A stretch of 64,000 nucleotides of DNA, from NCBI GenBank assembly GCA_030682715.1, contig JAUXNQ010000055.1, forward strand, positions 124,001 to 188,000, written 5' to 3'. The position numbers were made by a program, and so were the translations under genes. The notes beneath the pieces were generated by a model. The model worked only from the letters and a program-made list of their open reading frames with translations, was not told the origin of the DNA and searched no databases. Position 1 is the stretch's first letter, and every line of letters starts with the position of its first letter. Positions 1,046-58,917 of this stretch are shown piece after piece. Origin of the DNA: Methylotenera sp. GTDB lineage: Bacteria; Pseudomonadota; Gammaproteobacteria; Burkholderiales; Methylophilaceae.

Positions 1046-1286
1046 TTGGCAGCCTGTCGGGCTTAAACCTAAAAACGGCTTTCATCCACTAAAAACACAA
1101 AAATCACGAAATGGATAAGCAGGCATTTCGCTTTATTAACTGAAAGCTCGCAAATAAAACAAAGAGATAAATCAATTATTACGCTCACCTATTGGGTGAC
1201 GGCTTAAATGTTCGTAACTATTTTATTTTATTAGTGTATGTCCGTGAGTTTTGTGGAAAACTGCTTTTTATAGGTTAAAGGAACAA

Positions 1287-3158
1287 ATGATGGAAAAGGC
1301 TGATCAGCTTTCGTGGCTTTACGATCTGTACCGCATCGGGCAATCGGAACTACTGCGCGAAACTCCGGCGGCAGTGCAACAACGGATATTGCAGCATATC
1401 GTGACCGGTTTCGGCGCAGATACTGGTTCGCTCGCCCTATGCAGAAATAACGATTGTTCTGAACTGGGCATCGTCGCAACCATCGGTCTGCCAGATGGCG
1501 TTGTCGGCAGCATTATCCAGAAGGGTGAAGGCGTGCTGGGATGGCTGGCGGAGAAAGGTGAGCCCGTGCTACTCAATGGCGACATCTTAGGCGATACCCG
1601 CTTCCGTAATGTCCAGCGGCGCACTGATGCGCCTCGCCCTGCCTCGGCCATGTGCTGGCCGCTCACAATTGAGCAACATGTTATCGGTGCACTCTCCATC
1701 AACCGCAAGGGGAGTGAGCACGCCTACACCGAAAGCGAACTGGAACACGGTAGCGTCCTCGTTAATCTGGTCACTATCGTAATCGAGAACGCCCAATTAC
1801 ATAGCGAGCAGCAGCAGCGCATCCGCATGTTCGCCCACCTTCACGAGAAGAACCGGGAGGCCAATCGCAAGCTAGAAGAGGCTCATCACGAGGCGCTACA
1901 GGCGCGCGAGCGGCTGGACAGTATTCTTGGCTCGCTCGACAACGTGGTCTGGTCGATTACGCCAGATACTTATGAAACCATTTATCTCAATCCGGCGGCA
2001 GAAAAACTTTATGGGCATCCAGTGGCGGATTTTATTGCCGATTCTAATCTATGGTTTCAAACCGTGCATCCCGACGACCGCGATCGGCTCGGTGCCTGCA
2101 TGCCAGAGATTCTGGAAAAAGGTGTGTTGGATATTGAATACCGCATCGTGCGCCCAGATGGCGAGATGCGCTGGATTCATGACCACATCCACGCCATTTT
2201 CGACAAGAAGGGCAAGGCGGTGAGCCTGAACGGTTTGGGTACGGACATTACTCTGAGCCGGCAAGCAGAAGTCCAGCTCAAAAAGAGCCGCGATGAACTG
2301 CAGGTAGCCTACAGCAAACTGCAGCAGGCTCAGAGCCAATTGCTGCAGTCGGAGAAATTGGCCTCCATCGGCCAGTTGGCAGCGGGCGTGGCACATGAAA
2401 TCAACAACCCGATTGGTTATGTCTATTCCAACCTCGGCTCGCTGCAGAAGTACCTGGATGAGTTATTTACGATAGTAGATGCCTACGAGAAAGTTGAGCC
2501 CCTGCTCGAGCAGCACCAGGATGCGATGACTAGCATACGCGCGATGAAGGATAAAGCCGATATTGGATTTCTTAAAGAAGACGTGGCTGCACTGATGAGC
2601 GAATCGCGTGAAGGCATCACGCGCGTGAAGAAAATTGTGCAAAACCTCAAAGACTTCTCTCACGCTGGCTCCGACGAAGAGTGGCAATGGGTAGACCTGC
2701 ATCAGGGCTTGGATAGTACGCTCAATATCGTATGGAATGAAATCAAATACAAAGCTGATGTGACCAAGGAATACGGCGAAATCCCTGAGGTTGAATGCCT
2801 ACCCTCGCAGCTCAATCAGGTGTTTATGAATCTCATGGTCAATGCGGCGCATGCCATTGAGGATAGGGGTATCATCACCATACGCACTGGTGTGCAGAAA
2901 GATCAAGCTCAGTGCGAGCAGGTATGGGTTGAGGTTATTGACACTGGCAAGGGCATTGCACCTGAACACCTAAGCAAGATATTCGACCCATTCTTCACCA
3001 CTAAACCAGTGGGAAAAGGTACAGGGTTGGGGCTCTCTGTATCTTACAGTATTATCCAAACACATCACGGTAGCATTCATGTAACAAGTGAAGTTGGCAA
3101 AGGCACGACTTTCCGCATTACGTTACCAGTGAAACAGCCTGTAGCACAACCTTCATAA
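1287..3158 (+). CDS. Soluble GAF-PAS sensor histidine kinase
   Basis: Cytoplasmic two-component kinase of 623 residues from the ATG at 1287. I prefer this start to the in-frame start at 1251 because AAAGGA lies just upstream and the paralogue at 9014 begins at the matching place. Domains: GAF (about 15-175), a short coiled linker, PAS (about 205-325), HisKA with the phospho-accepting His in VAHEINNP (H370), and a HATPase domain with DTGKGI and GTGLGL boxes near the C terminus. No transmembrane segment is visible. The kinase core is nearly identical to that of the 9014 kinase, even in long DNA stretches. The likely partner is the response regulator at 3594, now separated by a repeat-rich spacer. 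The input ligand cannot be read from the sequence. Confidence 0.9.
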   Translation: MMEKADQLSWLYDLYRIGQSELLRETPAAVQQRILQHIVTGFGADTGSLALCRNNDCSELGIVATIGLPDGVVGSIIQKGEGVLGWLAEKGEPVLLNGDILGDTRFRNVQRRTDAPRPASAMCWPLTIEQHVIGALSINRKGSEHAYTESELEHGSVLVNLVTIVIENAQLHSEQQQRIRMFAHLHEKNREANRKLEEAHHEALQARERLDSILGSLDNVVWSITPDTYETIYLNPAAEKLYGHPVADFIADSNLWFQTVHPDDRDRLGACMPEILEKGVLDIEYRIVRPDGEMRWIHDHIHAIFDKKGKAVSLNGLGTDITLSRQAEVQLKKSRDELQVAYSKLQQAQSQLLQSEKLASIGQLAAGVAHEINNPIGYVYSNLGSLQKYLDELFTIVDAYEKVEPLLEQHQDAMTSIRAMKDKADIGFLKEDVAALMSESREGITRVKKIVQNLKDFSHAGSDEEWQWVDLHQGLDSTLNIVWNEIKYKADVTKEYGEIPEVECLPSQLNQVFMNLMVNAAHAIEDRGIITIRTGVQKDQAQCEQVWVEVIDTGKGIAPEHLSKIFDPFFTTKPVGKGTGLGLSVSYSIIQTHHGSIHVTSEVGKGTTFRITLPVKQPVAQPS

Positions 3159-3593: not shown

Positions 3594-4238
3594 ATGCTAA
3601 GCCTTACAGACCAAAAGATGGTAGCCCCCACGGTTTTCGTCGTAGATGATGATAAGGAAATGCGCAACTCTTTGCGCCGATTGCTCATGACTATGCATCT
3701 AAACGTGGAGCTATATAGCTCAGCCCAGGAATTCATGGAACATTACAAGCCAGAATGGCCTGGGTGCATTATTCTAGACATGCGGATGCCACGCATGGGC
3801 GGACTGGACTTGCTGGCAAAGCTCGTGGAACAAGGGGTCAGCACACCAGTGATTATCGCCACCGGCCACGGCGACGTGCCGTCAGCGGTTAGAGCCATGA
3901 AGGGTGGTGCATTCGGATTTATCGAAAAGCCTTTTGACGAACAGGAATTGCTAGACTGTGTAAACGGCGGCATCGCGCTGGATCATGAAATAAGACAGGA
4001 AGCGGCGCGGCGCAAGGATATCAGTACGCGAATGGCGCAACTGACTGCCCGCGAACTTGAAGTGCTAGAATTGATCATCTCAGGCAAGACCAACAAGATA
4101 ATCGCTACTGAACTCAATGTCAGCTGCAAGACCGTTGAAGCGCATCGCTCCAGAGTGATGCGCAAGATGCAAGCAGATTCAGTGGCCAACCTTGCACAAT
4201 TGTATTTTACATCCACAGCGCTGTCTAAGCGCGGTTAG
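3594..4238 (+). CDS. FixJ/NarL-type response regulator (receiver + LuxR HTH)
   Basis: A 214-residue response regulator. An N-terminal receiver domain (about 12-125) has the acidic pair VDDD, the phospho-acceptor Asp in ILDMRMP and the lysine in EKPFDE. A LuxR-type helix-turn-helix (about 145-205) has the typical LTARELEVLELI and SCKTVEAHRSRVM segments. This is the FixJ/TodT layout, and such proteins normally activate transcription when phosphorylated. The natural kinase candidate is the one at 1287, although a repeat element now lies between them. No good ribosome site precedes the first ATG. A second Met at codon 9 has none either, so I keep the first. Confidence 0.9.
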   Translation: MLSLTDQKMVAPTVFVVDDDKEMRNSLRRLLMTMHLNVELYSSAQEFMEHYKPEWPGCIILDMRMPRMGGLDLLAKLVEQGVSTPVIIATGHGDVPSAVRAMKGGAFGFIEKPFDEQELLDCVNGGIALDHEIRQEAARRKDISTRMAQLTARELEVLELIISGKTNKIIATELNVSCKTVEAHRSRVMRKMQADSVANLAQLYFTSTALSKRG

Positions 4239-4584: not shown

Positions 4585-4929
4585 ATGGCCAAGAACGTTA
4601 AATCGCAAAAGCCCCAGGTCAGGGCAAAGGTGCGCGAGTTCGTCATTCCTGTCGTCCGCGACGGTGTCGTGCTAGGCAGGGAGGCTCCACTGGGTTGTGT
4701 CGCCATACGCCGGGCGCTGGATCTGCTGATCGCCGCGCCTTTTGAGCATATCGAGATCGAGGATGACGTTATCAGCGACATCATGATAAGAAAGGCTATC
4801 CTGCGCCGTATTCCGAGAGAGAATGTGATTGATTTTGTACTCAAATCCGTCAAACCCCTCATGGGCGCGGAAGAGATCATGCATCTGGATCTGGATGTAG
4901 AAATCATGGTGGAGTATAGCGGCCGATGA
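4585..4929 (+). CDS. Small protein of unknown function
   Basis: A 114-residue protein that I do not recognise. It starts with a basic stretch (residues 1-17). It then looks like a compact alpha/beta fold with alternating hydrophobic strands (REFVIPVV, HIEIEDDVI) and helices, ending in a strand-like LDLDVEIMVEYS. There is no signal peptide, membrane segment or cysteine pair. A good ribosome site (gaaaggtag) precedes the ATG. Its stop overlaps the start of the 1036-residue GGDEF-EAL protein (ATGA), so translation is probably coupled and the two are likely functional partners. It is the first gene after the sigma-54-like promoter. It might be an adaptor, but nothing in the sequence proves that. 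Confidence 0.75.
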   Translation: MAKNVKSQKPQVRAKVREFVIPVVRDGVVLGREAPLGCVAIRRALDLLIAAPFEHIEIEDDVISDIMIRKAILRRIPRENVIDFVLKSVKPLMGAEEIMHLDLDVEIMVEYSGR

Positions 4930-7900
4930 ATCCATTGCTAGCCAGGGATGCGCTGTGCAGGCGGGTTGTTGAGGTAGGTGCCGAGGAGCGTCCGCAAAAG
5001 GCGAGCGCCAGAAACATCTTTGCGGTTTTCGAACATCACGCCGGCGGTTTGCGCACTTTTTTGGGGCTTGTGACGCAAAGCGATGTCGCGCGTTACCCGC
5101 AGCGCATTTTTGCCGACCTGCTGCCAATCGGCGCGGCCGACCGCTTGCCGGTCGGCGTGGTTGTTCCCGTTCCGGAGGATATGCTGCTTGAAGAGGTCCT
5201 GGCAAGACTAGACCAGCAAGGGCTGGAGGCCATTTCCGCAGCGGACGCTGCGGGGAAATTTTCCGGCGTGCTGACCCGGACGAGCATTCTGGAGGCGCTC
5301 TTTGCCCGCGAGCGGGAACTGCTCCTGCATCTTGAGGAAAGCCACCATCACCTGACTGCATGGGCTGCTCGGGTAGAGCAACTGCACGACGCCTCCAAAA
5401 AACTGCTGGCGCTACTTGCCTACACAACGCTGGAACAAGACTTGTTGCAGGCCGGCATCGAAGCCTTGGCGCAACTTATTCAGGCGCGCTATGGCGCCAT
5501 CGGCATTCTCGGCGAAAACGGGGAGCTCGAGCATTTTATCTATACCGGCATTACTGCCGAGCAGGCCAAGCACATTGGCAGGCTACCCGAGGGGCGGGGG
5601 CTGTTAGGTGTCGTCATCAAGGAAGATCGCGCCTTGCGTCTCGAAGATATGTCCCAGGATCCGCGCAGCGCCGGTTTTCCGCCCCACCACCCCGCCATGA
5701 AAAGCCTGCTCGCCGTACCCATAGACCGCGATGGTGTAGCTTTCGGGCGTGTTTACCTGAGCGAGAAAACCAACGGTGAGCCGTTTAGCGCCAGTGACGA
5801 AATACTCGCCACAAGTTATGCCAACTCGCTCGCCATGATCATCGCCCATGCCAAGGAAGTTCAGGCAAGGGTAGAGGCGCAGCAACGTCTGGACTATCTC
5901 GCCCATTATGACGGACTGACCGGGTTGCCCAACCGGGGATTGTTCCATGACCGCATGTCTCAGGAGCTCGTGCAGGCGCGCCGCAACAAGCAGCCACTGG
6001 CCGTGCTTTTTCTGGATCTGGATGATTTCAAGCTGATCAACGACACGCTTGGCCATAGCGTTGGCGACAACCTGCTCAAGGCCGTCGCCCAACGCATCCA
6101 GAGCTGCCTGCGCGAGGGTGACACCGTGGCGCGCCTAGGCGGCGATGAATTCACCCTGCTGCTGCCAGAAATATCCCGCTTCGAGGATGCTGCGCAGATT
6201 GCCGACAAGATAGTCTGCGATTTGAGACTGCCGATCACGATAGCGGACAGGGAGCTTTTTGTCACGGCAAGCGTAGGCATCAGCATCTACCCAGACGATG
6301 GCGAGGATGCGGACAGCCTGCTCAAGAACGCCGACACCGCGATGTACCATGCCAAAAAGCACGACAAGAACAGTTACCGCTTCTTTACCCAGGACATGAA
6401 TACGGCGCTTTCCAATTTGATGGAAAGCGAGAACGATCTCCGCCGGGCTTGGGTGAACAACGAGTTTGTGCTGCATTACCAACCCCAGTTGGATTTGCGC
6501 ACGGGGCGTATCGTCGGCATGGAGGCGCTACTACGCTGGCAGCATCCGGAAAAAGGGCTTGTTTCGCCAGCGGAATTCATCCCAGTTGCTGAATGCATGG
6601 GGCTGATTGTTCCGCTGGGAGAATGGGTGCTGCAAACCGCCTGCGCCCAGAATAAAGCATGGCAGGACGCCAGATTCGCGCCTCTGCGCATGGGGGTGAA
6701 CATGTCGGTGCGCCAGTTAAGGCAGGATAATGTCGTGGACATGGTCAAGCGCATTCTGCAGGAAACCGGACTCGCTGCACAATACCTGGAACTCGAGATC
6801 ACCGAAAGCCTCCTGATGGAAGACCCCGACAAAGCGACTGGAGTATTGCTGGCGCTGAAATCGCTGGGCATCAATGTTTCACTGGACGATTTTGGCACGG
6901 GTTATTCATCCCTGAGTTTTCTCAAGCATTTTCCTATTGATGCGCTCAAGATTGATCAAACCTTCATTCGTGACATCGCCTCCAACCCCGATGATGCCGC
7001 CATTACTTCTGCCGTGATTGACATGGGTGCGCGGCTGAAACTTCGCGTAATCGCCGAGGGCGTGGAAACGGAAGCCCAACTCAGGTTTCTGGAGGCGCAC
7101 GGTTGCGACGAGATACAGGGTTACTTCTTTAGCAAGCCCGTACCTGTCGAAAATGCGACCTCCCTGCTTGCGGAATGCAAAGGGATGCAACCATCTACTA
7201 CGCGTGGCGGGCGGATGGCGCAGACATTGCTACTGGTAGATGATGAGCAGAATATCGTTTCCGCCCTGAAGAGGCTATTGCGGCACGATGGCTACACGAT
7301 ACTCACCGCAAACAGTGGCAAGGAGGGGCTGGAACTGCTGGCTACCCATGATGTCGGCGTCATTCTTTCCGACCAACGCATGCCAGAAATGACTGGCGTC
7401 GAGTTTTTGCGGCGGGCCAAGGAGCTTTACCTGGATACCGTGCGTATCGTGCTTTCCGGCTATACCGACCTCAAGTCAGTGACCGATGCGATCAACGAGG
7501 GCGCCATTTACAAATTCCTCACCAAGCCGTGGGAAGACGAACAACTGCAGACCAACGTCCGCGAAGCGTTCCATCACCATGCGCTGAAGCTGGAGAACGA
7601 GCAGCTTGCGCGGGAAGTCAAGGCCATGAACGAGGCATTGTCCCGTACCAATCTGGAGCTGGAACGACGCATCGAGGAAAAAACCCGGGAAGTCGTGAGC
7701 AAGGTCAATATCCTGCAGGTTTCCCAGGAAGTTCTGGAAAATCTGCCCGCGGCCATATTCGGTGTGGACGACACGGGACTGATTGTCATTGCTAACCGGA
7801 AAGCCGAAGAATTGCTGGGCCAACCTGCAACCGGCTCGCTGCTGGGTAACTCGGCTGTGACAGTGCTGCCGGCAACGCTGCTGGCTTGCCTGCAGGAAGT

Positions 7901-8036
7901 TCAGGCGGGAGAAAGCATCGTCAGTGGCAAAACCGTGGAATTGCCGGATGGGCGTCATGCCGAGGCATGGTGTCACCCGATGGGGACGCTCTCCAAGTCA
8001 AAGGGTGAGGTTATGGTCATTACGGTCAAATCTTAA
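4926..8036 (+). CDS. Composite CBS-like/GAF/GGDEF/EAL/receiver/PAS c-di-GMP protein
   Basis: A 1036-residue soluble protein. In order: an N-terminal region resembling a CBS pair (about 1-120), a GAF domain (about 160-315), a GGDEF domain with intact GGDEF at 405-409, an EAL domain with intact EALLR at 533-537 and downstream DDFGTGYSS, a CheY-like receiver with phospho-acceptor Asp816 (SDQRMPEMTG) and KPWEDE, a coiled coil (about 885-925) and a C-terminal PAS-like domain (about 930-1030). Both the cyclase and phosphodiesterase motifs look complete, so it could make or break c-di-GMP. A receiver placed after EAL is unusual, and a Met just before it suggests fusion of two ancestral genes. It is translationally coupled to the gene before it and followed 6 bases later by an HDOD gene. 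Confidence 0.9.
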   Translation: MNPLLARDALCRRVVEVGAEERPQKASARNIFAVFEHHAGGLRTFLGLVTQSDVARYPQRIFADLLPIGAADRLPVGVVVPVPEDMLLEEVLARLDQQGLEAISAADAAGKFSGVLTRTSILEALFARERELLLHLEESHHHLTAWAARVEQLHDASKKLLALLAYTTLEQDLLQAGIEALAQLIQARYGAIGILGENGELEHFIYTGITAEQAKHIGRLPEGRGLLGVVIKEDRALRLEDMSQDPRSAGFPPHHPAMKSLLAVPIDRDGVAFGRVYLSEKTNGEPFSASDEILATSYANSLAMIIAHAKEVQARVEAQQRLDYLAHYDGLTGLPNRGLFHDRMSQELVQARRNKQPLAVLFLDLDDFKLINDTLGHSVGDNLLKAVAQRIQSCLREGDTVARLGGDEFTLLLPEISRFEDAAQIADKIVCDLRLPITIADRELFVTASVGISIYPDDGEDADSLLKNADTAMYHAKKHDKNSYRFFTQDMNTALSNLMESENDLRRAWVNNEFVLHYQPQLDLRTGRIVGMEALLRWQHPEKGLVSPAEFIPVAECMGLIVPLGEWVLQTACAQNKAWQDARFAPLRMGVNMSVRQLRQDNVVDMVKRILQETGLAAQYLELEITESLLMEDPDKATGVLLALKSLGINVSLDDFGTGYSSLSFLKHFPIDALKIDQTFIRDIASNPDDAAITSAVIDMGARLKLRVIAEGVETEAQLRFLEAHGCDEIQGYFFSKPVPVENATSLLAECKGMQPSTTRGGRMAQTLLLVDDEQNIVSALKRLLRHDGYTILTANSGKEGLELLATHDVGVILSDQRMPEMTGVEFLRRAKELYLDTVRIVLSGYTDLKSVTDAINEGAIYKFLTKPWEDEQLQTNVREAFHHHALKLENEQLAREVKAMNEALSRTNLELERRIEEKTREVVSKVNILQVSQEVLENLPAAIFGVDDTGLIVIANRKAEELLGQPATGSLLGNSAVTVLPATLLACLQEVQAGESIVSGKTVELPDGRHAEAWCHPMGTLSKSKGEVMVITVKS

Positions 8037-8042
8037 GAAATT

Positions 8043-8867
8043 ATGCAGCCTATAGAAAACATACTCGGCAAAATCCAGCAACTGCCATCACTGCCCACAC
8101 TGGTGATGGAGATCATGGGCAGCGTCAATAACGATCAGGTGGATGTCGCTACCCTGGTAGGCAAGATCAGTCAGGATCCAGCGTTGACCATGAAAGTCAT
8201 TAGGGTGGCAAACTCTTCATTTTTTGGGCTCTCCAGACAGATAGGCTCGCTCAAGGAGGCGGTGATGGTCATCGGCTTCAGCAGTCTACGCGGGCTGGTT
8301 ACCGCCGCTGCACTCGTCAATTTGTTTCCATCAGGGGTGGGGAATGCTTTTGACGGCAGGCATTTCTGGCTGCACAGCATCGAAACCGGAAACTGTGCGA
8401 AAGTGCTGGCCAAGCGACTGGGGGTGGATCCTGAAATTGCCTTCACGGCTGGTCTGTTGCATGATATCGGCCGACTGGTGCTAGGCGTCTATTTTTACGA
8501 CGAATTCCTGCGAGTGCTGGACTACCGTAAGAATAACGGTGTGAGCATGCTCGCGTCGGAACAGGCGGTGCTGGGGCTGGATCATGCCGCTCTGGGTGCC
8601 GAAGTGGCCGAACGCTGGCACCTGCCGCCAGCCATCTGGATGGCTGTCAGGGATCATCATTTGGACGAAGGCCGGCAGACCACGCTGGCGGAGATTGTGT
8701 ATATTGCCGACCGACTTTGCCGGCCACAGGCAGCTGGCGGCGCTTTGGCTGGTGAGTCGATCCATTTTGCTGAAACGTTGCTGCGTCTTGGGCTTGACGA
8801 AGCTGCTCTGAATTCCGTGGCCGAGGAAATGGAGCCGCTCAACGCGGGCGCGCGCCTACTGTTGTAA
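8043..8867 (+). CDS. HDOD domain protein (second copy)
   Basis: A 274-residue HDOD protein, clearly paralogous to the one at 185. It shares the LPSLPTLVMEI start, the RVANSSFFGL segment (about 54-63) and an HD-like motif at 140-144. Here that motif reads HDIGR, so the lysine seen in the first copy is an arginine. It follows the GGDEF-EAL protein by 6 bases and precedes a GAF histidine kinase, repeating the HDOD-kinase order of 185-3158. No membrane part is visible. I infer a signalling role coupled to the neighbouring kinase or c-di-GMP proteins; enzymatic activity is not predictable. Confidence 0.85.
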   Translation: MQPIENILGKIQQLPSLPTLVMEIMGSVNNDQVDVATLVGKISQDPALTMKVIRVANSSFFGLSRQIGSLKEAVMVIGFSSLRGLVTAAALVNLFPSGVGNAFDGRHFWLHSIETGNCAKVLAKRLGVDPEIAFTAGLLHDIGRLVLGVYFYDEFLRVLDYRKNNGVSMLASEQAVLGLDHAALGAEVAERWHLPPAIWMAVRDHHLDEGRQTTLAEIVYIADRLCRPQAAGGALAGESIHFAETLLRLGLDEAALNSVAEEMEPLNAGARLLL

Positions 8868-9013
8868 TTTCTGAAATCAGTCGCTAAAATCAGAGACTAT
8901 CAGTTCCCAGTCAGCATTATTTGTCTGTAGAATTGAGTTGCTATCTGCAGCCTTAATCCATCCCGCTGAAAATCATATAGGGATATAATCCGAATTATGA
9001 GAGAGACTACTGT

Positions 9014-10459
9014 ATGGCTTTGAACAATGATGGCCAATTATCCTGGATTGGCGAACTCTACCGTCTCGGGCAATCGGGCGTATTGCGCGAAGCCCCTGCG
9101 GAGGTACAGAAGCGCATCCTGCAACATATCGTCAGCGGGTTTGAGGCAAGTAGTGGTGCGCTTGCTTTATGTGAAGACGATACCAGTGAGAACATGACGA
9201 TAGTCGCAGGCATCGGACTCCCGCCAGATGCGATTGGCAGCACGATCAGGCTTGGCGAGAAGGTGCTGGGGTGGGTTGCCAGAGAAGGGGAAGCGCTACT
9301 CTTGAATGGCGATATTTCCAATGATTCACGCTTCTGCAACATGCAGGCAAGAACTGGCTCCGTTAGACCCAACTCCGCGATGTGCTGGCCCCTTAAACTG
9401 GACAATCGCGTAATCGGCGCGCTCAGCATCAACCGCATTGGTAACCAGAAAGCCTATACCGAAGATGATCTGGAATACGGTGGCATTCTCGTGAACCTGA
9501 TTACCGTGGTAATCGAGAACGCCCAATTGCACATTGAACAGCAGCAGCGCCTTGATGCGCTGGAGCAAGCAGAGGCGCAGTCGCGCAACAGTCACAATGA
9601 ACTCCAAATAGCTTATCGGCAGCTTCAGGATACCCAAGGGCAGTTGTTGCAGTCCGAAAAACTGGCCTCCATCGGGCAGCTGGCGGCAGGCGTGGCACAT
9701 GAAATCAACAACCCGATTGGCTATGTCTATTCCAACCTGGGCTCGCTACAGAAGTATTTACAGGATATTTTCCTGGTAATCGAGGCTTACGAGAAAATCG
9801 AGTCGCTGCCCGGTCTGCACGAAGAAACGCTGGCGGAAATCCATAGTGCCAAGAATATTGTCGATTTCGCTTTCCTGAAAGAGGATATTGCCGAACTGAT
9901 GAGCGAATCGCGTGAAGGCATCACGCGCGTGAAGAAAATCGTACAGAACCTTAAGGATTTTTCCCACGCCGACTCCGACGACAGCTGGCAATGGGCCGAC
10001 CTGCATTTGGGGCTGGACAGCACGCTCAGCATCGTGTGGAACGAGATCAAGTACAAGGCCGAAGTGATAAAGGAATATGGCGAAATCCCTGAGGTTGAAT
10101 GCCTACCCTCGCAGCTGAATCAGGTGTTCATGAATCTGCTGGTAAACGCATCACATGCCATTAATGAGCAGGGCACCATCACCATTCGCACTGCGGCAGA
10201 GGGAGATCTGGTATGGGTGGAGGTAACGGATACTGGGGCAGGCATTGAACCGGAGCTCATGAACAAGATATTCGATCCATTTTTCACCACCAAGCCAGTG
10301 GGCACAGGCACTGGGCTGGGGCTGTCCGTTTCCTACAGTATTATTCAGAAGCATTGTGGTAGCATCAGCGTGGTCAGTGAGTCTGGCAAAGGTACGACTT
10401 TCCGCATCACGTTGCCAGTGAAGCGGTCAGAGCCACAACTCGAAAAGTCACTTTCATAA
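9014..10459 (+). CDS. Soluble GAF sensor histidine kinase
   Basis: A 481-residue cytoplasmic kinase. GAF domain (about 10-170), short coiled linker, HisKA with phospho-His229 (VAHEINNP), a long helical insert, and HATPase with DTGAGI and GTGLGL boxes. It is a close paralogue of the kinase at 1287 but lacks the PAS domain. Parts of the kinase core are identical at DNA level (for example the 35 bases from about 2780 match those from about 10082), which points to recent duplication or gene conversion. A TATAAT box (8984-8989) lies 30 bases before the ATG, so it may also have its own promoter. The receiver-HD-GYP gene follows 11 bases later and is the likely phosphorylation partner. Confidence 0.9.
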   Translation: MALNNDGQLSWIGELYRLGQSGVLREAPAEVQKRILQHIVSGFEASSGALALCEDDTSENMTIVAGIGLPPDAIGSTIRLGEKVLGWVAREGEALLLNGDISNDSRFCNMQARTGSVRPNSAMCWPLKLDNRVIGALSINRIGNQKAYTEDDLEYGGILVNLITVVIENAQLHIEQQQRLDALEQAEAQSRNSHNELQIAYRQLQDTQGQLLQSEKLASIGQLAAGVAHEINNPIGYVYSNLGSLQKYLQDIFLVIEAYEKIESLPGLHEETLAEIHSAKNIVDFAFLKEDIAELMSESREGITRVKKIVQNLKDFSHADSDDSWQWADLHLGLDSTLSIVWNEIKYKAEVIKEYGEIPEVECLPSQLNQVFMNLLVNASHAINEQGTITIRTAAEGDLVWVEVTDTGAGIEPELMNKIFDPFFTTKPVGTGTGLGLSVSYSIIQKHCGSISVVSESGKGTTFRITLPVKRSEPQLEKSLS

Positions 10460-10470
10460 GGAGTGGTAGT

Positions 10471-11805
10471 TTGAACGATGTAATGAACCCACAGCCGCAA
10501 GATCAGGAAACCTTACCAGCAACCCTGCTCTTTGTCGATGACGAACCGAATATTCTGGCTGCGCTACGGCGCCTGTTCCGACCGCTGGGTTTCCGCATTT
10601 TTATCGCGGAAGGCGGCGCACAGGGGCTGGAAGTCATCGCCAACGAGAAAATCGATCTGGTCATCTCCGATATGCGCATGCCTGAGATGGACGGGGCTCA
10701 ATTCTTGGAACAAGTGCGGCTCAGGTCACCAGACAGTATACGCATCCTGCTGACTGGCTACGCAGATATTTCATCCACGATAGCTGCTATCAACAAGGGG
10801 CAGATATTTCGTTACATCGCCAAGCCGTGGGAGGACAACGATATCGTTCTCACTGTCCGTCACGCGCTGGAGCGCAAACAGCTGGAACGCGAGAAGGAGC
10901 GCCTTGAAGCGCTGACCCAGCGACAAAATGACGAGCTGAAAGATCTCAACGCCAACCTGGAGGATAAGGTCAAAGCACGCACCGAGGAACTGCGGCAGAC
11001 CATGGGCTTTCTTGATATTGCACATGAAAAACTGAAAAAGAGCTTCTTTACCTCAATCCTTATGTTCTCCAATTTGCTGGAGTTACGGGAGGGGGCTATG
11101 GCAGGCCATTCACGCCGGGTTGCAGATATTGCGCGCAAACTGGCAGTTCGTCTAGGTATGAACGAGGCTGATGCTCAAGATGTGATGGTTGCAGGGCTTT
11201 TACACGATATCGGTAAGATAGGTCTTCCAGATGATCTTCTTCACAAACCGTTTAGCATGCTAGCTGGTGAAGAATACAGCGCGGTTGCCAAGCACCCTAT
11301 CGTTGGGCAGACTGCGCTGATGGCGCTGGAGCAGCTGAATGGCGCCGCCAAACTGATTCGCAGTCACCATGAACGGTTTGACGGCAGAGGTTATCCTGAT
11401 GGACTTGTCGGCATGGATATTCCGCTCGGGGCACGAATTCTGAATGTTGCCAACGATTACGATGCCGTACAGCAAGGCCGCCTGCTAAACAAGCGTATGA
11501 ATGCGAAAGATGCGCTTACCTTCATCAAGGATGGACGCGATAATCGGTATGACCCACAGGTGGTGGATGCCTTCGTCAGGATGATAGAGGGTGTAGGGGA
11601 AGTAACCAAAAAAGTGCAGGAAATCGCGTTGCATACCGCTGACCTTAAGAGTGGTATGGTACTCACGCGAGATCTAATGTCTCGAAGCGGTCTTCTGCTG
11701 CTAGCCCGCGATTACCTGTTGGATGATGCTCTGATTGATCATCTAAGAAAGAACGAGAAGATGGATGGTCATCCTCTCATCATTTATGTACAAGTAGGGA
11801 GGTAA
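10471..11805 (+). CDS. Response regulator with HD-GYP c-di-GMP phosphodiesterase domain
   Basis: A 444-residue RpfG-like protein: receiver (about 15-135) with phospho-acceptor Asp67 (SDMRMPEMDG) and KPWEDN, a coiled coil (about 135-185), and an HD-GYP domain with the metal-binding HD at 245-246 (HDIGK) and GYP at 307-309 within HHERFDGRGYP. All key HD-GYP residues look present, so hydrolysis of c-di-GMP is likely. The start is a TTG at 10471 with a strong AAGGAG seven bases upstream; an ATG at 10483 is the alternative. It follows the 9014 kinase closely and is followed after two bases by a stand-alone receiver gene. Confidence 0.88.
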   Translation: MNDVMNPQPQDQETLPATLLFVDDEPNILAALRRLFRPLGFRIFIAEGGAQGLEVIANEKIDLVISDMRMPEMDGAQFLEQVRLRSPDSIRILLTGYADISSTIAAINKGQIFRYIAKPWEDNDIVLTVRHALERKQLEREKERLEALTQRQNDELKDLNANLEDKVKARTEELRQTMGFLDIAHEKLKKSFFTSILMFSNLLELREGAMAGHSRRVADIARKLAVRLGMNEADAQDVMVAGLLHDIGKIGLPDDLLHKPFSMLAGEEYSAVAKHPIVGQTALMALEQLNGAAKLIRSHHERFDGRGYPDGLVGMDIPLGARILNVANDYDAVQQGRLLNKRMNAKDALTFIKDGRDNRYDPQVVDAFVRMIEGVGEVTKKVQEIALHTADLKSGMVLTRDLMSRSGLLLLARDYLLDDALIDHLRKNEKMDGHPLIIYVQVGR

Positions 11806-11807
11806 TC

Positions 11808-12389
11808 ATGGCTCGTATCATGTTGGTGGATGATGAAGAAAACATACTTAGAGCATTACGGCGTGTTCTAGGTACGCCAGAAGCATGGTGTGGTAATCCA
11901 TTTGGAGACAGGGGTGAGGGAGCACCTCGCAATGCACTCGAGATATTCACATCGCCGCTTGTAGCCTTGGCGCGCGCCAGCGAAGGAGTGCCGTTCGATG
12001 TTGTCATTTCCGATTATCGCATGCCCGAGATGGATGGCGTCGCTTTCCTCAAGACCTTGCGCGAGATACAGCCAGAAACGGTACGTATCATACTTAGCGG
12101 TTATGCGGATATGGAAGGGCTTATCAGCGCCATCAACGAAGCTAACATCCATCGCTTCATCTGCAAGCCGTGGGATGATCACGCCCTGTGTGCCGACGTG
12201 CGGCAGGCGTTACAGTTGCACTATCTACAAATTGATAATCAGCGCCTCGCAGACGAAGTGCGCCACCAGCAGGGTATCATTTCCCGGCATGAGCTGGAAT
12301 TACGCCGCCTGGAGGCCGAAACGCCTGGCATCACCAAAGTCAGGCGGACACCAGATGGTGGGATACTGCTTGATGAAGACGTCGACTGA
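11808..12389 (+). CDS. Stand-alone receiver protein with an insertion
   Basis: A 193-residue single-domain response regulator. The acidic pair is VDDEE near residue 9, the phospho-acceptor is Asp69 (SDYRMPEMDG), and the KPW motif (CKPWDD) follows. A coiled-coil tail (about 140-175) has no output domain. The distance from the acidic pair to the phospho-acceptor is 17 residues longer than in its neighbour at 10471. The extra piece is glycine/proline-rich (about residues 22-42, beginning GTPEAWCGNPFGD). A strong GGGAGG ribosome site precedes the ATG. The stop overlaps the start of the MglA-like GTPase (TGATG), so the receiver may relay phosphorylation state to that GTPase. Confidence 0.85.
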   Translation: MARIMLVDDEENILRALRRVLGTPEAWCGNPFGDRGEGAPRNALEIFTSPLVALARASEGVPFDVVISDYRMPEMDGVAFLKTLREIQPETVRIILSGYADMEGLISAINEANIHRFICKPWDDHALCADVRQALQLHYLQIDNQRLADEVRHQQGIISRHELELRRLEAETPGITKVRRTPDGGILLDEDVD

Positions 12390-13036
12390 TGGCAGACTAC
12401 GATGAAGAGGCCAGCCGCCTGACCATCAAGCTGGTGTATTACGGCCCTGCGATGAGCGGCAAGACCACCAACCTGATGCGCCTGCATGACTTGCTCAATC
12501 CGCAACTCAAGGGGGAGATCATGACGCTGGAAACGCAGAACGACCGTACCCTGTTCTTCGACCTGCTGCCTCTTGGGTTCAGGACACCCTCTGGCCTGCT
12601 GGTCAAGTTCAAGTTGTTCACTGTACCGGGGCAGGTAGCGCACGATGCCACGCGCAAGGCCGTGCTGTCGCGCGCCGATGGGGCGGTATTCGTGGCGGAT
12701 TCGCAGCGCAGTCAGGGACTCAACAACTCCGAGGCATTCCAGAATCTGGCCGACAATGTCGGACGGGTGGGACTCGATTTCGACACCCTGCCGCTGGTCA
12801 TCCAGTTCAACAAGCGCGATTTGCTAGATATCTACTCCGAGGATGAGTTGCGCGAACGCTGGGCAAAAATGCCCTGGCCGCTGTTGTTTGCCGTCGCCCT
12901 GACTGGCGATGGGGTTCAGGAAACACTGCGGGCGCTGATGGCGCAAGTCTATCCCGTGTTGGACAGGCAGTACGGGTTGCAGGCGAGGCACGGCATGGGA
13001 CGCGAGGAATTCGCGGCGGCGATTGTCGGGGCATGA
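12389..13036 (+). CDS. MglA-like Ras-superfamily small GTPase
   Basis: A 215-residue small GTPase of the MglA family, which in Myxococcus sets cell polarity and controls type IV pili and gliding. Visible motifs: P-loop GPAMSGKT at 19-26, TVPGQ at 78-82, and NKRD at 141-144. From memory, the arginine and glutamine that serve MglA as built-in catalytic residues are Arg53 and Gln82; both are present here at the same numbers. Position 21 is Ala where the Myxococcus protein, as I remember it, has Gly. The gene overlaps the receiver gene before it and the kinase gene after it. No MglB/roadblock partner is recognisable nearby. I call it MglA-like rather than mglA because its function here is unproven. 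Confidence 0.88.
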   Translation: MADYDEEASRLTIKLVYYGPAMSGKTTNLMRLHDLLNPQLKGEIMTLETQNDRTLFFDLLPLGFRTPSGLLVKFKLFTVPGQVAHDATRKAVLSRADGAVFVADSQRSQGLNNSEAFQNLADNVGRVGLDFDTLPLVIQFNKRDLLDIYSEDELRERWAKMPWPLLFAVALTGDGVQETLRALMAQVYPVLDRQYGLQARHGMGREEFAAAIVGA

Positions 13037-13037
13037 G

Positions 13038-14267
13038 ATGCAACTGAGAAATGATCATTTTGATCGCGATTTCACGCTGACCGAACTGTTGGCCGGGATG
13101 TCGCGCGAAAGGCTTGCGCGCAGCCTGGATACGTTGTTGGGGCCTGATTTTCGTCTGCTGACGGCAAGGAGCGAGGTTTTGCTGGGCACTGTGGAGCCAT
13201 TGTCGGTGGCTTGTCGTTGCGAGTTGCGACTGGACATCGAACCGCTGGGCTTTCTGGAAGCGCCCGTTACCATGCAGCCACAGGCGCAAGCATGCGCGAG
13301 TCTAATCGAATTGACCATGAAAAGTGCTGCACGCTATTTAATGGCATCTCATCTTCACGAGAATAATGTTAACGAGAACTACAAGAACCTGCTACTGCAG
13401 CATGAAGCTCTGCTTAAATCTGAGCTACAGTATAAGCAATTGAGTGAGGAGCTAGAGTCGCGCGTGCAGGCACAGGTCAAAATTATCAAGCAAGCGGAAC
13501 GGCAACTTTATCAGGCAGAAAAAATGGCCTCCGTAGGACAGCTTGCCGCTGGCGTGGCGCATGAAATCAATAATCCGATCGGGTTTATCCGCAGCAACCT
13601 GGGGACGGCGAAGGCTTATGTGCAGAACTTTTCCCAACTTGCTCCGCTGATCAAATCTGGCGCTGTTGATCAACTGGCAGCCGTATGGAATGAGGGTGAT
13701 ATGGATTTTGTACTGGAAGATTTTTCTTCACTGCTGAACGAGAGCATTAGCGGTGCCGACCGTGTGGCACGCATCGTGGCCGACCTGAAAGGGTTTTCCA
13801 ACATAGACCACACCGAAGAGGAAGTAATCTCCATCAGCGACTGCATCACCTCCGTGTGCAATGTTGCCGCCAGCCGTATTCCTGCTGGCGTGCATCTGGT
13901 GATGCAACTGGAACAAACTCCACCCTTGCGTTGCCGTCCCGGCCATCTCAATCAGGTCTTTCTGAACTTGCTGCTAAATGCGTTACAGGCAGTGGGTGAA
14001 CAAGGTGAAATTAGAATTAGAACGGAATCTATTACGGGAGTGATTTTGGTACACGTAATAGATACTGGGATAGGCATCACCGAAGAAAATATGCTGCGAA
14101 TTTTCGACCCATTTTTCACAACACATGATGTGGGCCATGGTACTGGGCTGGGTTTGACCGTGTGCCGCGACATTGTGCAGGCGCATGGCGGTAGCATTGT
14201 TGTGGAAAGCAAAAAAAATGAAGGCAGCCATTTTACTGTATATCTGCCGCTTGATCGGAATACCTAA
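13038..14267 (+). CDS. Histidine kinase of the GTPase locus
   Basis: A soluble kinase of about 409 residues. Its N-terminal 110 residues match no sensor domain I know; they contain a cysteine pair (CRC) and a helical segment. A coiled coil (about 115-160) leads to HisKA with His175 (VAHEINNP) and a HATPase with DTGIGI and GTGLGL boxes. The kinase core is related to those at 1287 and 9014 but more divergent. I place the start at the ATG at 13038; a TTG at 13023 would overlap the GTPase by 14 bases. Its stop overlaps the start of the receiver-ATPase gene by one base, so that receiver is the obvious phosphorylation target. Confidence 0.85.
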   Translation: MQLRNDHFDRDFTLTELLAGMSRERLARSLDTLLGPDFRLLTARSEVLLGTVEPLSVACRCELRLDIEPLGFLEAPVTMQPQAQACASLIELTMKSAARYLMASHLHENNVNENYKNLLLQHEALLKSELQYKQLSEELESRVQAQVKIIKQAERQLYQAEKMASVGQLAAGVAHEINNPIGFIRSNLGTAKAYVQNFSQLAPLIKSGAVDQLAAVWNEGDMDFVLEDFSSLLNESISGADRVARIVADLKGFSNIDHTEEEVISISDCITSVCNVAASRIPAGVHLVMQLEQTPPLRCRPGHLNQVFLNLLLNALQAVGEQGEIRIRTESITGVILVHVIDTGIGITEENMLRIFDPFFTTHDVGHGTGLGLTVCRDIVQAHGGSIVVESKKNEGSHFTVYLPLDRNT

Positions 14268-16498
14268 TGTCACTCTACACCTCTCTTTTTACTGGTTCGG
14301 AACCTACGCCAGAACCGCAAAAGACTATCGATAAGCAAATCTACAAAATATTGCTGGTAGATGATGAGCCGAATGTGCTCAAAGCGCTGCAACGTATCTT
14401 TCGTCAGGAGAATTACCAGATCACGCTGGCCGGCAACGGCCAAGAGGCGTTGGAACAGCTGAAAAAAGATACATTTCAATTGATGATCTCAGATTATATG
14501 ATGCCGATTATGAACGGCGCGGAACTGCTTAAACGGGCTAGAGACATCCAGCCCGAGATGATTCGCATCATGTTAACAGGTCATGCAGACACTGGTGCTG
14601 TAATGGGTGCCATCAATGAAGGTGCGGTATACAAGTTCATTCTCAAGCCGTGGAACGATGATGATTTGCGCGTGACGGTGGCACTGGCACTGGAGCAATG
14701 CGACTTGATTCACAAGAATAAGGTGCTGCAAAAGGACAACATACAGAAGAGTAAGGAAATTTCCTCGCTCGCTAAGTTAACTATCACTAACCGCAGTCAG
14801 CTTGCAATTATGCTCAACAAACGTAACCTGCTCAATAGTCAGCAGGTGCAAGAGCTTTATCGGCTACAGCAAACGCGTAAGGAACCAATGATAAAATTGC
14901 TTCTGGAGCGCGATTGGATAGCGGAAAAAGTGATACGAGATATTCTGCGCAAAGAACTTTTGTTAGAAGAAGTGTCGCTCGCAGAGTTCCATGTAGATCC
15001 AGCGGTAGTGGCACTCATTCCCCTGAGCTTCTGTGAACGTCAACTAGTGGTACCTCTCAAACTCAATGGTCGACAACTGATGCTGGCAGTAGCAGATCCA
15101 TTGGATATGGGGTTGATTGACGAATTACAGTTTGTTTCTGGTCTTAATATTCAAGCGGTGATGGCAGACGTGGCAGCCATCAAAACTAAGATCAAGGAAG
15201 TTTATGGCGCTGAAGATAACGTGGACTTTAAAGACCTCGAAACTTTGGTGTCTAGCCCAGATCCCTACGAGGGTATTGAGATAGTCATTGAGGACGACCA
15301 GGACCAGTCAATAGAAGAATTGCTGCAAGGTACCGACGAGCCCCCTGCAATTCGCTTGGTGAATGCAGTGATACTTGAGGCGATCCGGCTCGGTGCCAGC
15401 GACATCCACATTCAGCCGCGTACTAAAAGTGTCGTTGTACGCTACCGCATTGATGGCGTACTAATCGACAAGATTCATATCCCACATCACATGCACCAGT
15501 CGCTTGTGTCACGCCTGAAAGTGATGTCAGAACTCGACATCAGCGAGCGGCGCCGGCCGCAAGATGGCCGCATTACGGTCAAGAGTCCATTGCGCATCGT
15601 GGATTTGCGAATTTCGACCCTGCCCACCATCAACGGAGAAAAGGTCGTGATGCGCATCCTTGACCGAAATGCGGCGGTGCATGGCCTAGATGGCCTGGGG
15701 TTTTCACAAACCAATCTATCCAGAATACTCACGATGGTAGACAAGCCGCAGGGCATTATTCTGGCCACTGGTCCGACCGGCAGCGGCAAGACCACGACGC
15801 TCTACTCGCTATTGCAGCACAATGCCTCACCAAGCAAGAATTACATCACCATCGAAGATCCAGTTGAATATTATCTGGATATGGCTGGTCAAGTGCTGAT
15901 CAAGGAGAAGATTGGACTTAACTTTCCAGTTGTGCTGCGCTCTATCCTACGTCAGGATCCTGATGTAATCTTGTTGGGAGAAATTCGCGACCTCGAAACG
16001 GCAGAAGTCGCCTTCCACGCTGCGTTAACTGGGCACCTAGTATTTTCCACCTTGCATACCAATTCTGCGGTGGCGACCATCGCCCGCCTGTTCGATCTCG
16101 GCCTTAAGCCCTACGTGGTAGCCACGGCAATTGAGGGGATTATTGCGCAACGGCTGGTAAGGGGTATCTGCCCACGTTGCCGTGAACAGGTAACGCCAGA
16201 TACAGGGCTGATACAAAGAATAGGCTTTCCTTTTGAGGCGGGCAAGATCGCGGCGTATCGGGGCAAGGGTTGCCATCACTGTAGCGGGACAGGTTATAAA
16301 GGTAGAATCGGCTTGTATGAAATACTCGTTCCTGATGAAGAAATGCGGGATATGGTTTCGGGCGGTGCGAGCATACTTGAAATCGGGAAGGCTGCGCGGA
16401 AGAGAGGGATGGCATCGCTTATCATGGATGCGCTAGAGAAAGTGAACGCAGGGTTGACCACGCTAGAAGAGGTGCTGCGGGTTTTGGGGCCGCAGTAA
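14267..16498 (+). CDS. Receiver fused to a PilB/GspE-type assembly ATPase
   Basis: A 743-residue protein: N-terminal receiver (about 25-145) with phospho-acceptor Asp76 (SDYMMPIMNG) and KPWNDD; a middle part resembling the GspE/MshE N-terminal domain (about 180-310); and a full GspE/PilB ATPase with Walker A GPTGSGKT at 502-509, an EDPVEY box, the LLGEIRD Walker B region and a four-cysteine zinc-site pair (CPRC, CHHC). Such ATPases drive type IV pilus extension or type II secretion. Fusion to a receiver suggests that phosphorylation gates the motor. No pilin, PilC or secretin gene is in the window, so it must act on machinery encoded elsewhere or have a different role. It ends the co-oriented run; a hairpin terminator follows. 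Confidence 0.9.
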   Translation: MSLYTSLFTGSEPTPEPQKTIDKQIYKILLVDDEPNVLKALQRIFRQENYQITLAGNGQEALEQLKKDTFQLMISDYMMPIMNGAELLKRARDIQPEMIRIMLTGHADTGAVMGAINEGAVYKFILKPWNDDDLRVTVALALEQCDLIHKNKVLQKDNIQKSKEISSLAKLTITNRSQLAIMLNKRNLLNSQQVQELYRLQQTRKEPMIKLLLERDWIAEKVIRDILRKELLLEEVSLAEFHVDPAVVALIPLSFCERQLVVPLKLNGRQLMLAVADPLDMGLIDELQFVSGLNIQAVMADVAAIKTKIKEVYGAEDNVDFKDLETLVSSPDPYEGIEIVIEDDQDQSIEELLQGTDEPPAIRLVNAVILEAIRLGASDIHIQPRTKSVVVRYRIDGVLIDKIHIPHHMHQSLVSRLKVMSELDISERRRPQDGRITVKSPLRIVDLRISTLPTINGEKVVMRILDRNAAVHGLDGLGFSQTNLSRILTMVDKPQGIILATGPTGSGKTTTLYSLLQHNASPSKNYITIEDPVEYYLDMAGQVLIKEKIGLNFPVVLRSILRQDPDVILLGEIRDLETAEVAFHAALTGHLVFSTLHTNSAVATIARLFDLGLKPYVVATAIEGIIAQRLVRGICPRCREQVTPDTGLIQRIGFPFEAGKIAAYRGKGCHHCSGTGYKGRIGLYEILVPDEEMRDMVSGGASILEIGKAARKRGMASLIMDALEKVNAGLTTLEEVLRVLGPQ

Positions 16499-16568: not shown

Positions 16569-16596
16569 GAGCTAACCTGATGGTTGGCCCTTTTTT
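16569..16596 (+). terminator. Rho-independent terminator after the signalling run
   Basis: gagctaacc (16569-16577) pairs with ggttggccc (16582-16590) across a 4-base loop, with one mismatch and one G-T pair, and is followed by six T residues. It sits about 70 bases past the stop of the receiver-ATPase gene and fits as the end of that transcript. Confidence 0.7.
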
Positions 16597-57132: not shown

Positions 57133-58917
57133 TTACTCAAGTTGTAGCGGAGGCGCCACCTTCATTAGCTCTTCAATGGTAGTGAGACCAGCGGCTACTT
57201 TTTCAGCACCGTTGATTATCAATGGTTGCATGCCTTCTTGTTGTGCTAATTTAGTCAGTTTTACTAAGTTTGTTTCTGGTGTGATCAGTTTTCGTAATGC
57301 TGGGGTAATTGTAAGCATTTCATAAATGCCGCTACGACCCCTAAAACCAGTGTTGCGGCATTCTAGGCAGCCAACAGCTTTGTAAATATGTGCTGGTTTT
57401 GGCAGGTTGAAGGTGCCAACGAGTGCATCCCATTTGCTTTGATCAATGGGTTCTTTTGTCTTGCAACTGGGGCAAAGTGTACGCACTAGCCGCTGGGCCA
57501 TGATGCCGAGTACGGTAGAGTGGATGAGGTAGGATGGTACGCCCAAGTCTAGTAAACGTGTAATAGCTGATGGTGAGTCGTTAGTGTGTAAAGTTGATAG
57601 GACTAAATGCCCTGTTAACGCAGCCTGAATCGCCATGTCCGCAGTTTCAATGTCTCGAATTTCACCCACCATGATGATGTCTGGATCTTGGCGCATGAGG
57701 GTGCGTATGCCATCTGCAAAGCCAAGTCCGATGTTTTGTTGAACCTGCATTTGATTGAACGCAGGCTCGACCATTTCGATTGGTTCTTCCACTGTACATA
57801 CGTTGACTTCTGATGTGGCAAGTAATTTTAAGGTGGAATACAGGGTAGTTGTTTTTCCTGAGCCTGTAGGGCCTGTGACTAAAATAATGCCGTTAGGCGC
57901 TTTTGTCCAAGAGCTCCATTTATCTGCTTGTTCTTTTGAAAAGCCCAGTGATAAAAAGTCTTTACCTGAAATGTCAGGTGAAAATATACGCATCACGAGC
58001 TTTTCACCAAATGCAGTAGGCATGGTAGATAAACGTAGCTCAATTTCCTGACCTTCTGCAGATAGCGTTTTAATGCGGCCATCCTGCGGGCGGCGCTTTT
58101 CAACCATATCCATACGACCCAGCAGCTTAATTCGGCTGGTGATGGCGTTCATAATGTTGGGGGGGAGTTGATATACTTGATGAAGAACGCCGTCGATTCG
58201 AAAGCGCATCATGCCCATATTGCGTCTAGGTTCTAAATGAATATCGCTGGCACGTTGTTCAAAGGCATATTTAAACAACCAGTCAACAATGTTGACCACG
58301 TGTTGTTCATTGGCGTCTAGATTTTTATCTTTACCCAGTTCTACTAATTGCTCAAAATTTTGGACACCTACAATTTGCCCTGCTTTTGCCAAATTGGCTG
58401 CATTCATTGAACTGGCTAATTTGTACATTTCAGGCAGGTAGCGATTAACCTCTAGTGGGTTTGCGAAAACCAGCTTCACCTTCATTTTAAGTACGCGCTC
58501 TAGGTCTTCAATCCAGTCGGTACTAAAAGGTTCAGTTGTAGCGATTGTTGCCATGCCATCTTTAATAGCAATTGGCATGATTTTCAGGCGTTCTGCATAG
58601 CCTTTTGATACAATTTGTGCAGCAGAACCGAAATCTAGTTTGAGTGGGTCAATGTGATAGTAGTCTAAGCCTGCGTGGGCGGCTAACCATGATGAAAGCC
58701 ATTCAACTGTAATCGCATTGTGAGGTGTATTAAGGTTTTTCCATTTTTGTTCACCAATCACTACTAGTGGATGCAGGTTAGAACTGTCTAGTTTTCGGTC
58801 TTTGTATAGTTTCTCAGCTTGTACTTTATCTAATATTCCATCGTTGACAAGGATGCGGAGCGCATCACCAAGTGTTAGGCGGCCCGATGGTTTGACTGAT
58901 AGTGTAGCTTTGCTCAT
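57133..58917 (-). CDS. Stand-alone GspE/PilB-family assembly ATPase
   Basis: A 594-residue ATPase of the type IV pilus/type II secretion family, with an N-terminal GspE-N-like region (about 75-175), Walker A GPTGSGKT, Walker B IIMVGEIRD, the HTNDSPSAI His box and the four-cysteine zinc site CPSC...CLEC. No pilin or PilC gene is adjacent, so its machine is encoded elsewhere. It differs from the receiver-ATPase at 14267 by lacking a receiver and by sequence. AAAGG precedes the ATG. It lies on the minus strand between nadC and ilvB. Confidence 0.88.
   Translation of the reverse strand: MSKATLSVKPSGRLTLGDALRILVNDGILDKVQAEKLYKDRKLDSSNLHPLVVIGEQKWKNLNTPHNAITVEWLSSWLAAHAGLDYYHIDPLKLDFGSAAQIVSKGYAERLKIMPIAIKDGMATIATTEPFSTDWIEDLERVLKMKVKLVFANPLEVNRYLPEMYKLASSMNAANLAKAGQIVGVQNFEQLVELGKDKNLDANEQHVVNIVDWLFKYAFEQRASDIHLEPRRNMGMMRFRIDGVLHQVYQLPPNIMNAITSRIKLLGRMDMVEKRRPQDGRIKTLSAEGQEIELRLSTMPTAFGEKLVMRIFSPDISGKDFLSLGFSKEQADKWSSWTKAPNGIILVTGPTGSGKTTTLYSTLKLLATSEVNVCTVEEPIEMVEPAFNQMQVQQNIGLGFADGIRTLMRQDPDIIMVGEIRDIETADMAIQAALTGHLVLSTLHTNDSPSAITRLLDLGVPSYLIHSTVLGIMAQRLVRTLCPSCKTKEPIDQSKWDALVGTFNLPKPAHIYKAVGCLECRNTGFRGRSGIYEMLTITPALRKLITPETNLVKLTKLAQQEGMQPLIINGAEKVAAGLTTIEELMKVAPPLQLE

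Follow-up and report, generated by a model that had tools for sequence, protein, structure and literature searches.

A conserved MglA-type GTPase, histidine kinase and receiver-ATPase gene trio in Methylotenera and its relatives: a possible control point for pilus extension

Introduction

In Myxococcus xanthus, the small GTPase MglA acts with SgmX to bring PilB to the cell pole, in the words of the excerpted source "by an unknown mechanism" (PMC11580455). A gene run in Methylotenera sp. places an MglA-like GTPase close to a receiver-bearing ATPase of the PilB/GspE type, among histidine kinases and c-di-GMP enzymes. Does this run form a single circuit, as an earlier note on the DNA had proposed, and what might it control? 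We analysed the run within a 64,000-nucleotide stretch (the window; contig JAUXNQ010000055.1, positions 124,001 to 188,000) of a draft genome of 2.45 Mb in 67 contigs (95% complete), and compared it with related loci. Published systems are drawn on from excerpts of the cited papers.

Results

Composition of the gene run

Nine open reading frames, C to K, lie on the forward strand between positions 4585 and 16498 and mostly touch one another; the positions, strand and domains given in the earlier note were all confirmed. C (4585-4929) encodes 114 amino acids, has a purine-rich leader and overlaps D by 4 bases. It has no match in Pfam or NCBIfam, and tblastn over 81 other loci returned nothing better than E 0.18; since no relative was found, we place C outside the conserved system. 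D (4926-8036) is a composite protein with CBS, GAF, GGDEF, EAL, receiver (REC) and PAS domains, in which the GGDEF and EAL motifs are intact and the REC-PAS part begins at about 7215. Six bases downstream lies E (8043-8867), an HDOD protein (PF08668, 2.9e-56), followed across a real gap of 146 bases by F (9014-10459), a GAF-histidine kinase. G (10471-11805), a further 11 bases on, encodes a REC-HD-GYP c-di-GMP phosphodiesterase, and H (11808-12389), separated from G by 2 bases, a Response_reg receiver with a conserved C-terminal tail. The gene for the GTPase, I (12389-13036), overlaps H by 1 base; its product of 215 amino acids is Arf-like in Pfam. J (13023-14267; an ATG at 13038 is a possible alternative start) encodes a histidine kinase with HisKA and HATPase_c domains and a short N-terminal GAF/roadblock-like domain. 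K (14267-16498), which overlaps J by 1 base, combines a receiver, an MshEN domain and a T2SSE ATPase domain.

A terminator-like hairpin with a T run (16571-16588, forward strand) follows K after 72 bases and is a weak candidate; terminator-like sites are no commoner than in shuffled sequences (16 versus a mean of 13.9, s.d. 4.1), and the same holds for promoter-like matches. Just upstream of the run, on the same strand, are a second HDOD gene (185-1045), a kinase gene (1251-3158) and a FixJ-type regulator gene (3594-4238). These genes are a partial duplicate of the cassette described below, and the kinase core of F is 75% identical to that of the upstream kinase.

A conserved trio and a portable cassette

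The run consists of two units, the trio I-J-K and a cassette made up of the REC-PAS part of D, the HDOD protein E, the kinase F, the REC-HD-GYP protein G and the tailed receiver H. At 24 of the 25 MglA loci checked, drawn from samples of the order and the class and including the window, I, J and K are intact, in the same order and on one strand. The exception (G036, the same genome as locus L051) has a divergent MglA of 57% identity without J or K; at L051 a distant ATPase lies 8 kb away. MglA occurs in 18 of the 250 genomes sampled from the order and K in 22, with both present in 18; every MglA genome thus has K, and four of the 22 K genomes are without MglA (in one of them, G368, the K homologue lacks the receiver). 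Across the class sample, MglA was found in 8/321 genomes at a threshold of E <= 1e-30. K was found at full length and at least 65% identity in seven of the 321, all of which have MglA, while three of the ten K matches in this sample are only 41-43% identical and do not extend to the receiver. Chance falls far short of explaining the linkage of MglA to K (Fisher p = 6e-24 across the 250 genomes and 6e-14 across 121 genera, uncorrected for kinship); the sampled genomes are related and the counts not independent.

A set of 53 loci, which overlaps the set of 25, comprises 35 loci from beta- and gammaproteobacteria and Desulfo-type genomes (L009-L042, L061) and 18 others (L043-L060). K lies downstream in 30 of the 35, and J and K both exceed thresholds in 27; the kinase is split in L015 and more distant in L040 and L041. 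The five loci without a full K include two whose contigs end within K (L017, L038), two whose contigs end before it (L039, L042) and one, L037, in which K is present in broken frames. Among the 18 other loci, a related MglA adjoins a kinase in 17, and K was detected in none at the thresholds used. Trio loci reach Chromatiales, Chromatiaceae, Massilia and, at lower identity, Desulfatitalea. Their distribution is patchy: none of the six further genomes sampled from the window's family has MglA. One locus in a Nitrosomonadales MAG has an extra receiver protein of 320 amino acids between J and K (L027:11927-12889). The trio is a real, conserved arrangement, of which we found no description in the open-access literature.

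The cassette is more loosely assembled. The composite form of D, with its ORFs joined, is seen in 8/53 loci (L014, L019, L022, L026, L027, L032, L033, L038), and REC-PAS occurs as a separate ORF in 12 loci, which may or may not be other than those eight. A REC-HD-GYP gene lies just upstream of the trio in 20 of 25 loci; G itself scores 579.2 bits against the NosR-family REC-HD-GYP model (NF053512, cut-off 400) and has intact HDIGK and HHERFDGRGYP motifs. The tail of H, PGITxV...G, lies beyond the Pfam receiver match, and its residues P173, G174, I175, T176, V178 and G184 are invariant in 19/19 sequences. This tail is present in 33 of the 250 order genomes, namely in 17 of the 18 MglA carriers and in 16 genomes without MglA. 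We examined 13 of these 16 (leaving out the weakest, G436, G455 and G475) and a second locus of G417, 14 loci in all, by BLAST. The kinase gene is beside H in all 14, REC-HD-GYP in 13 (not in L151), the REC-PAS part in 11 and the HDOD gene in ten, mostly in the order seen in the window (L157 is rearranged), and neither MglA nor K was found at any of the 14. In G417, the trio and the cassette are on different contigs (L106, L158). Since the cassette also occurs alone and is separated from the trio in G417, the run is best described as a cassette that has been joined to the trio repeatedly, not obligatorily. The receivers of D, G, H and K are 42-50% identical to one another, compared with 27-29% identity to the FixJ-type receiver.

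These results bear on the claim of a single circuit. The linkage of MglA to the receiver-ATPase extends well beyond the betaproteobacteria, to Chromatiales, Chromatiaceae and Desulfatitalea, and we never saw MglA and K lying apart within one genome, as they should have if the genes were unlinked in relatives; the only departures are the divergent MglA without K (G036) and the four K genomes without MglA. The single unit did not survive, as the c-di-GMP and HDOD part is a second module found alone elsewhere.

The GTPase and the absence of MglB

A phmmer search of the PDB pairs GTPase I with M. xanthus MglA at an E-value of 7.4e-44, and all four of its matches there are MglA of M. xanthus and Thermus thermophilus. 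In the excerpted survey of Wuichet and Sogaard-Andersen (PMC4316618), a TVPGQ sequence and an arginine finger are marks of Group 1. Both were found in an alignment of 35 GTPases (the window and 34 of the 53-locus set): TVPGQ in the G3 region (T78, V79, P80, G81, Q82) and the arginine finger R53, beside the conserved G2 threonine T54, are invariant in 35/35 rows. Judged by these motifs and the PDB match, I is a Group 1-type MglA.

According to the same survey excerpt, 390 of 449 MglA members are coupled to MglB and 59 are orphans (PMC4316618). We found no match to the MglB family Robl_LC7 in the window's own genome (95% complete), and none in 22 of the 24 other carriers. G249 has a Robl_LC7 match about 400 kb from MglA, and G500 a weak partial match only. 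Among the 16 genomes behind the fetched loci, Robl_LC7 is present in nine of Myxococcales type or delta and in two of Desulfo type (L037, L041), and absent from five of beta type (L026, L032, L035, L036, L061). In G568, MglB is far from the kinase-adjacent MglA-like GTPase; in L139, MglB adjoins a canonical MglA.

The kinase J

The N-terminal part of J was modelled with confidence, and fold comparison showed a resemblance to a small GAF or roadblock sandwich. Profile comparison of this domain with MglB gave a probability of 0.3%. J shares the helix that follows with the kinases beside Myxococcales-type MglA; in five of these kinases whose PocR region was scanned, PocR was present in L043, L044 and L054 and not in L058 or L059. 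This suggests that a pairing of GTPase and kinase came before the trio. The best NCBIfam model for both F and J is T2SS_HK (NF038348), which they match with 366.4 and 232.5 bits, respectively, under its cut-off of 450.

The motor K

K falls below the family cut-offs for PilB (TIGR02538; 575.2 versus 675.65 bits, compared with 810.8 for the PilB of this genome), for GspE (TIGR02533; 559.1 versus 630.25 bits) and for TfpB (NF053534; 458.7 versus 850 bits). In a tree of 34 ATPase domains, the K sequences form a clade of 16 rows, Desulfatitalea included, with support of 100/100; the deeper branching of this tree does not place K nearer to either PilB or GspE, and its NCBIfam scores for the two lie close together. 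From 61 loci tried, 54 and the window gave full-length K sequences, aligned as 48 distinct rows. The receiver residues D32, D33, D76, T104 and K127 are invariant in all 48, as are the Walker A motif, the GEIRD sequence and four cysteines. The MshEN domain is different. With RLG...Q motif positions set by hand, the first arginine is present in 5/48 rows in motif I and 0/48 in motif II, and the glutamine in 47/48 and 0/48, so that K has mostly lost the two motifs of a c-di-GMP receptor. A perfect MshEN motif may not be needed for binding, by the excerpted account of PMC5013675, and K may thus still bind weakly. Given the eroded motif, a direct action of c-di-GMP on K appears unlikely, which alters the circuit proposed in the earlier note.

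The window's genome contains five ATPases of PilB/GspE size and three platform proteins (PF00482), none of the latter on the contig of K. PilB is encoded together with PilC and two more ATPases are accompanied by platform genes, but TfpB and K have none. K therefore differs from a PilB encoded next to pilC, every PF00482 match being on other contigs. In 14 other genomes, by tables read by eye, every platform match lay more than 5 kb from K, the nearest being about 7 kb away in G348. In the window, a motif scan found no prepilin-like ORF near K and a profile search no platform gene. A gene for a TfpB-family pilus ATPase (57133-58917, reverse strand; 856.2 bits, cut-off 850) lies elsewhere in the window, flanked by acetolactate synthase and quinolinate phosphoribosyltransferase genes and with no platform gene beside it.

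A prepilin motif occurs near K or MglA in 4/81 fetched loci, and three of these are type IV pilins beside a K without MglA. Genomes G480, G515 and G545, all of one genus, have K without MglA and a Pfam Pilin gene upstream. In the loci L117, L118 and L119, the MglA-less K follows a type IV pilin gene in this way, and in L117 and L119 GAF-MshEN-ATPase and GAF-HD genes precede the pilin. In G348, two N_methyl prepilin-type genes (L099:3309-6457) run convergently towards K and stop 48 bases short of it; a GspE/GspF pair sits roughly 5-8 kb away, and the group resembles a type II or pseudopilus cluster. The pilin-bearing genus and G348 supply the only clues to the output from gene neighbourhoods.

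Discussion

Our best explanation of the whole locus, which we put forward tentatively and rate at slightly less than an even chance, is that K is an accessory pilus-extension motor gated by phosphorylation and by a GTPase. The trio would be the output module, controlling this accessory extension ATPase of a type IV pilus machine, and probably sets the time or the place at which surface filaments are extended. As no PilC/GspF platform gene lies beside K, K probably docks on an existing pilus base, as TfpB does in Acinetobacter. Kinases J and F may phosphorylate the receivers of K, G, H and D, as these receivers are alike and the kinase cores are alike. MglA-GTP would then recruit or license K at the right place, presumably by physical contact, in a shortened version of the MglA-SgmX-PilB pathway. 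With no MglB match, some other factor would have to set the nucleotide state of MglA; J is the first candidate, being the constant neighbour of MglA, and H is a possible one. The cassette would feed in through kinase inputs via the GAF and HDOD proteins and through c-di-GMP turnover by G and D, with c-di-GMP probably acting around K, by adjusting the surrounding state, and not via the eroded MshEN domain. A more specific scheme has the motor gated twice within one operon: a Ras-like switch lacking its classical GAP has its nucleotide cycle set by J, by way of the small GAF/roadblock-like domain, and acts directly on K, which J also switches through the receiver. This seems to us improbable in that full form.

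The filament in question may be of another kind: with the same gating, K could power or modulate type II secretion or another pseudopilus, and MglA could place that machine. We consider this unlikely, though it is the most serious competitor. K scores nearly as well against GspE as against PilB (559.1 and 575.2 bits), carriers have further sets of ATPase and platform genes, G348 combines GspE/GspF matches with two N_methyl prepilins convergent to K, and the best model for F and J, albeit under its cut-off, is named T2SS_HK. Against these points stand a window with no prepilin-like ORF or platform gene near K, the type IV identity of three of the four prepilin-motif loci among 81, and the effects known for Group 1 GTPases, which in the cited papers, as excerpted, are on pili and gliding. 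We infer the pilus assignment from the ATPase family, from the orphan status of K and from one pilin-bearing genus, while the prepilin cluster of G348 is of the opposite type; the earlier preference for type IV pili over type II secretion stands at that strength.

The GTPase and the ATPase might also be mere passengers of a signalling island, their order kept by joint transfer or transcription and the two sharing no pathway. The patchy spread (18/250 in the order, 8/321 in the class, 0/6 in the same family) and the modular cassette, found alone, speak for this view. Against it, I, J and K stay in order across a span from Chromatiales to Massilia (with Desulfatitalea at lower identity) while the surrounding cassette was gained, lost or moved. 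Over such distances, mere passengers should have become scattered; this explanation is correspondingly doubtful. Far less probable still is a canonical MglA/MglB/RomR polarity module with MglB elsewhere in the genome. Its attraction is that I shows the sequence marks of Group 1, the arginine finger among them, yet no Robl_LC7 match was found in the window's own genome, in 22/24 carriers or in the five further carriers named above, and profile comparison gave the N-terminal domain of J a 0.3% probability of matching MglB. Of the polarity analogy with Myxococcus, then, MglA is present and MglB was not found.

Compared with known systems, an accessory motor of this kind would represent MglA control over a pilus-type ATPase in a new variant form. 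The M. xanthus MglA-SgmX/FrzS/SopA pathway, as excerpted (PMC11580455), shares with the trio a Group 1 MglA, a PilB-family extension ATPase as output and the use of receiver proteins. There, mglA is in tandem with mglB (PMC4546325) and, by the survey excerpt, lies apart from the genes for its response-regulator partners (PMC4316618); in the trio, the neighbour is a kinase and the ATPase carries a fused receiver, and MglB was not found. SofG of M. xanthus is, like I, a Group 1 orphan uncoupled from MglB, and it helps to place PilB and PilT; unlike for the trio, the excerpt mentions no operon with a kinase and a receiver-ATPase (PMC4316618). TfpB of Acinetobacter baylyi resembles K in being a PilB-like second extension motor that works beside PilB on one pilus machine (PMC8213720, in part). 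K differs from TfpB in forming a separate clade and carrying a receiver, and the window's genome has a TfpB of its own (57133-58917).

In the Pil-Chp PilG/PilB-FimX-PilZ system of Pseudomonas aeruginosa, a phosphorylated receiver controls the location of PilB, much as we propose for the gating of K, and the extension complex includes c-di-GMP proteins (PMC12632253, excerpt). PilG is, however, a separate receiver under the chemotaxis-type kinase ChpA, and the excerpt describes polarity homologues of MglA as absent there (PMC12632253), whereas the receiver of K is fused. MshE and other MshEN ATPases have, like K, an MshEN domain before T2SSE, and REC is listed among the MshEN-associated domains in the excerpted paper (PMC5013675); they are gated by c-di-GMP (PMC5013675), whereas K has mostly lost the motif.

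The 2014 survey, as excerpted, describes Group 1 MglA gene neighbourhoods as varying widely (PMC4316618), a pattern from which the trio clearly departs in beta- and gammaproteobacteria. Its GTPase, kinase and motor are encoded next to one another and MglB was not found, which makes it a small system for reconstituting the step from MglA to PilB with purified components. Through the fused receiver, phosphorylation would gate filament extension directly at the pilus-type motor. In the improbable direct scheme, if it is true, two-component signalling and GTPase polarity signalling would be joined in these bacteria in a short pathway that dispenses with MglB, and possibly also with SgmX or FrzS.
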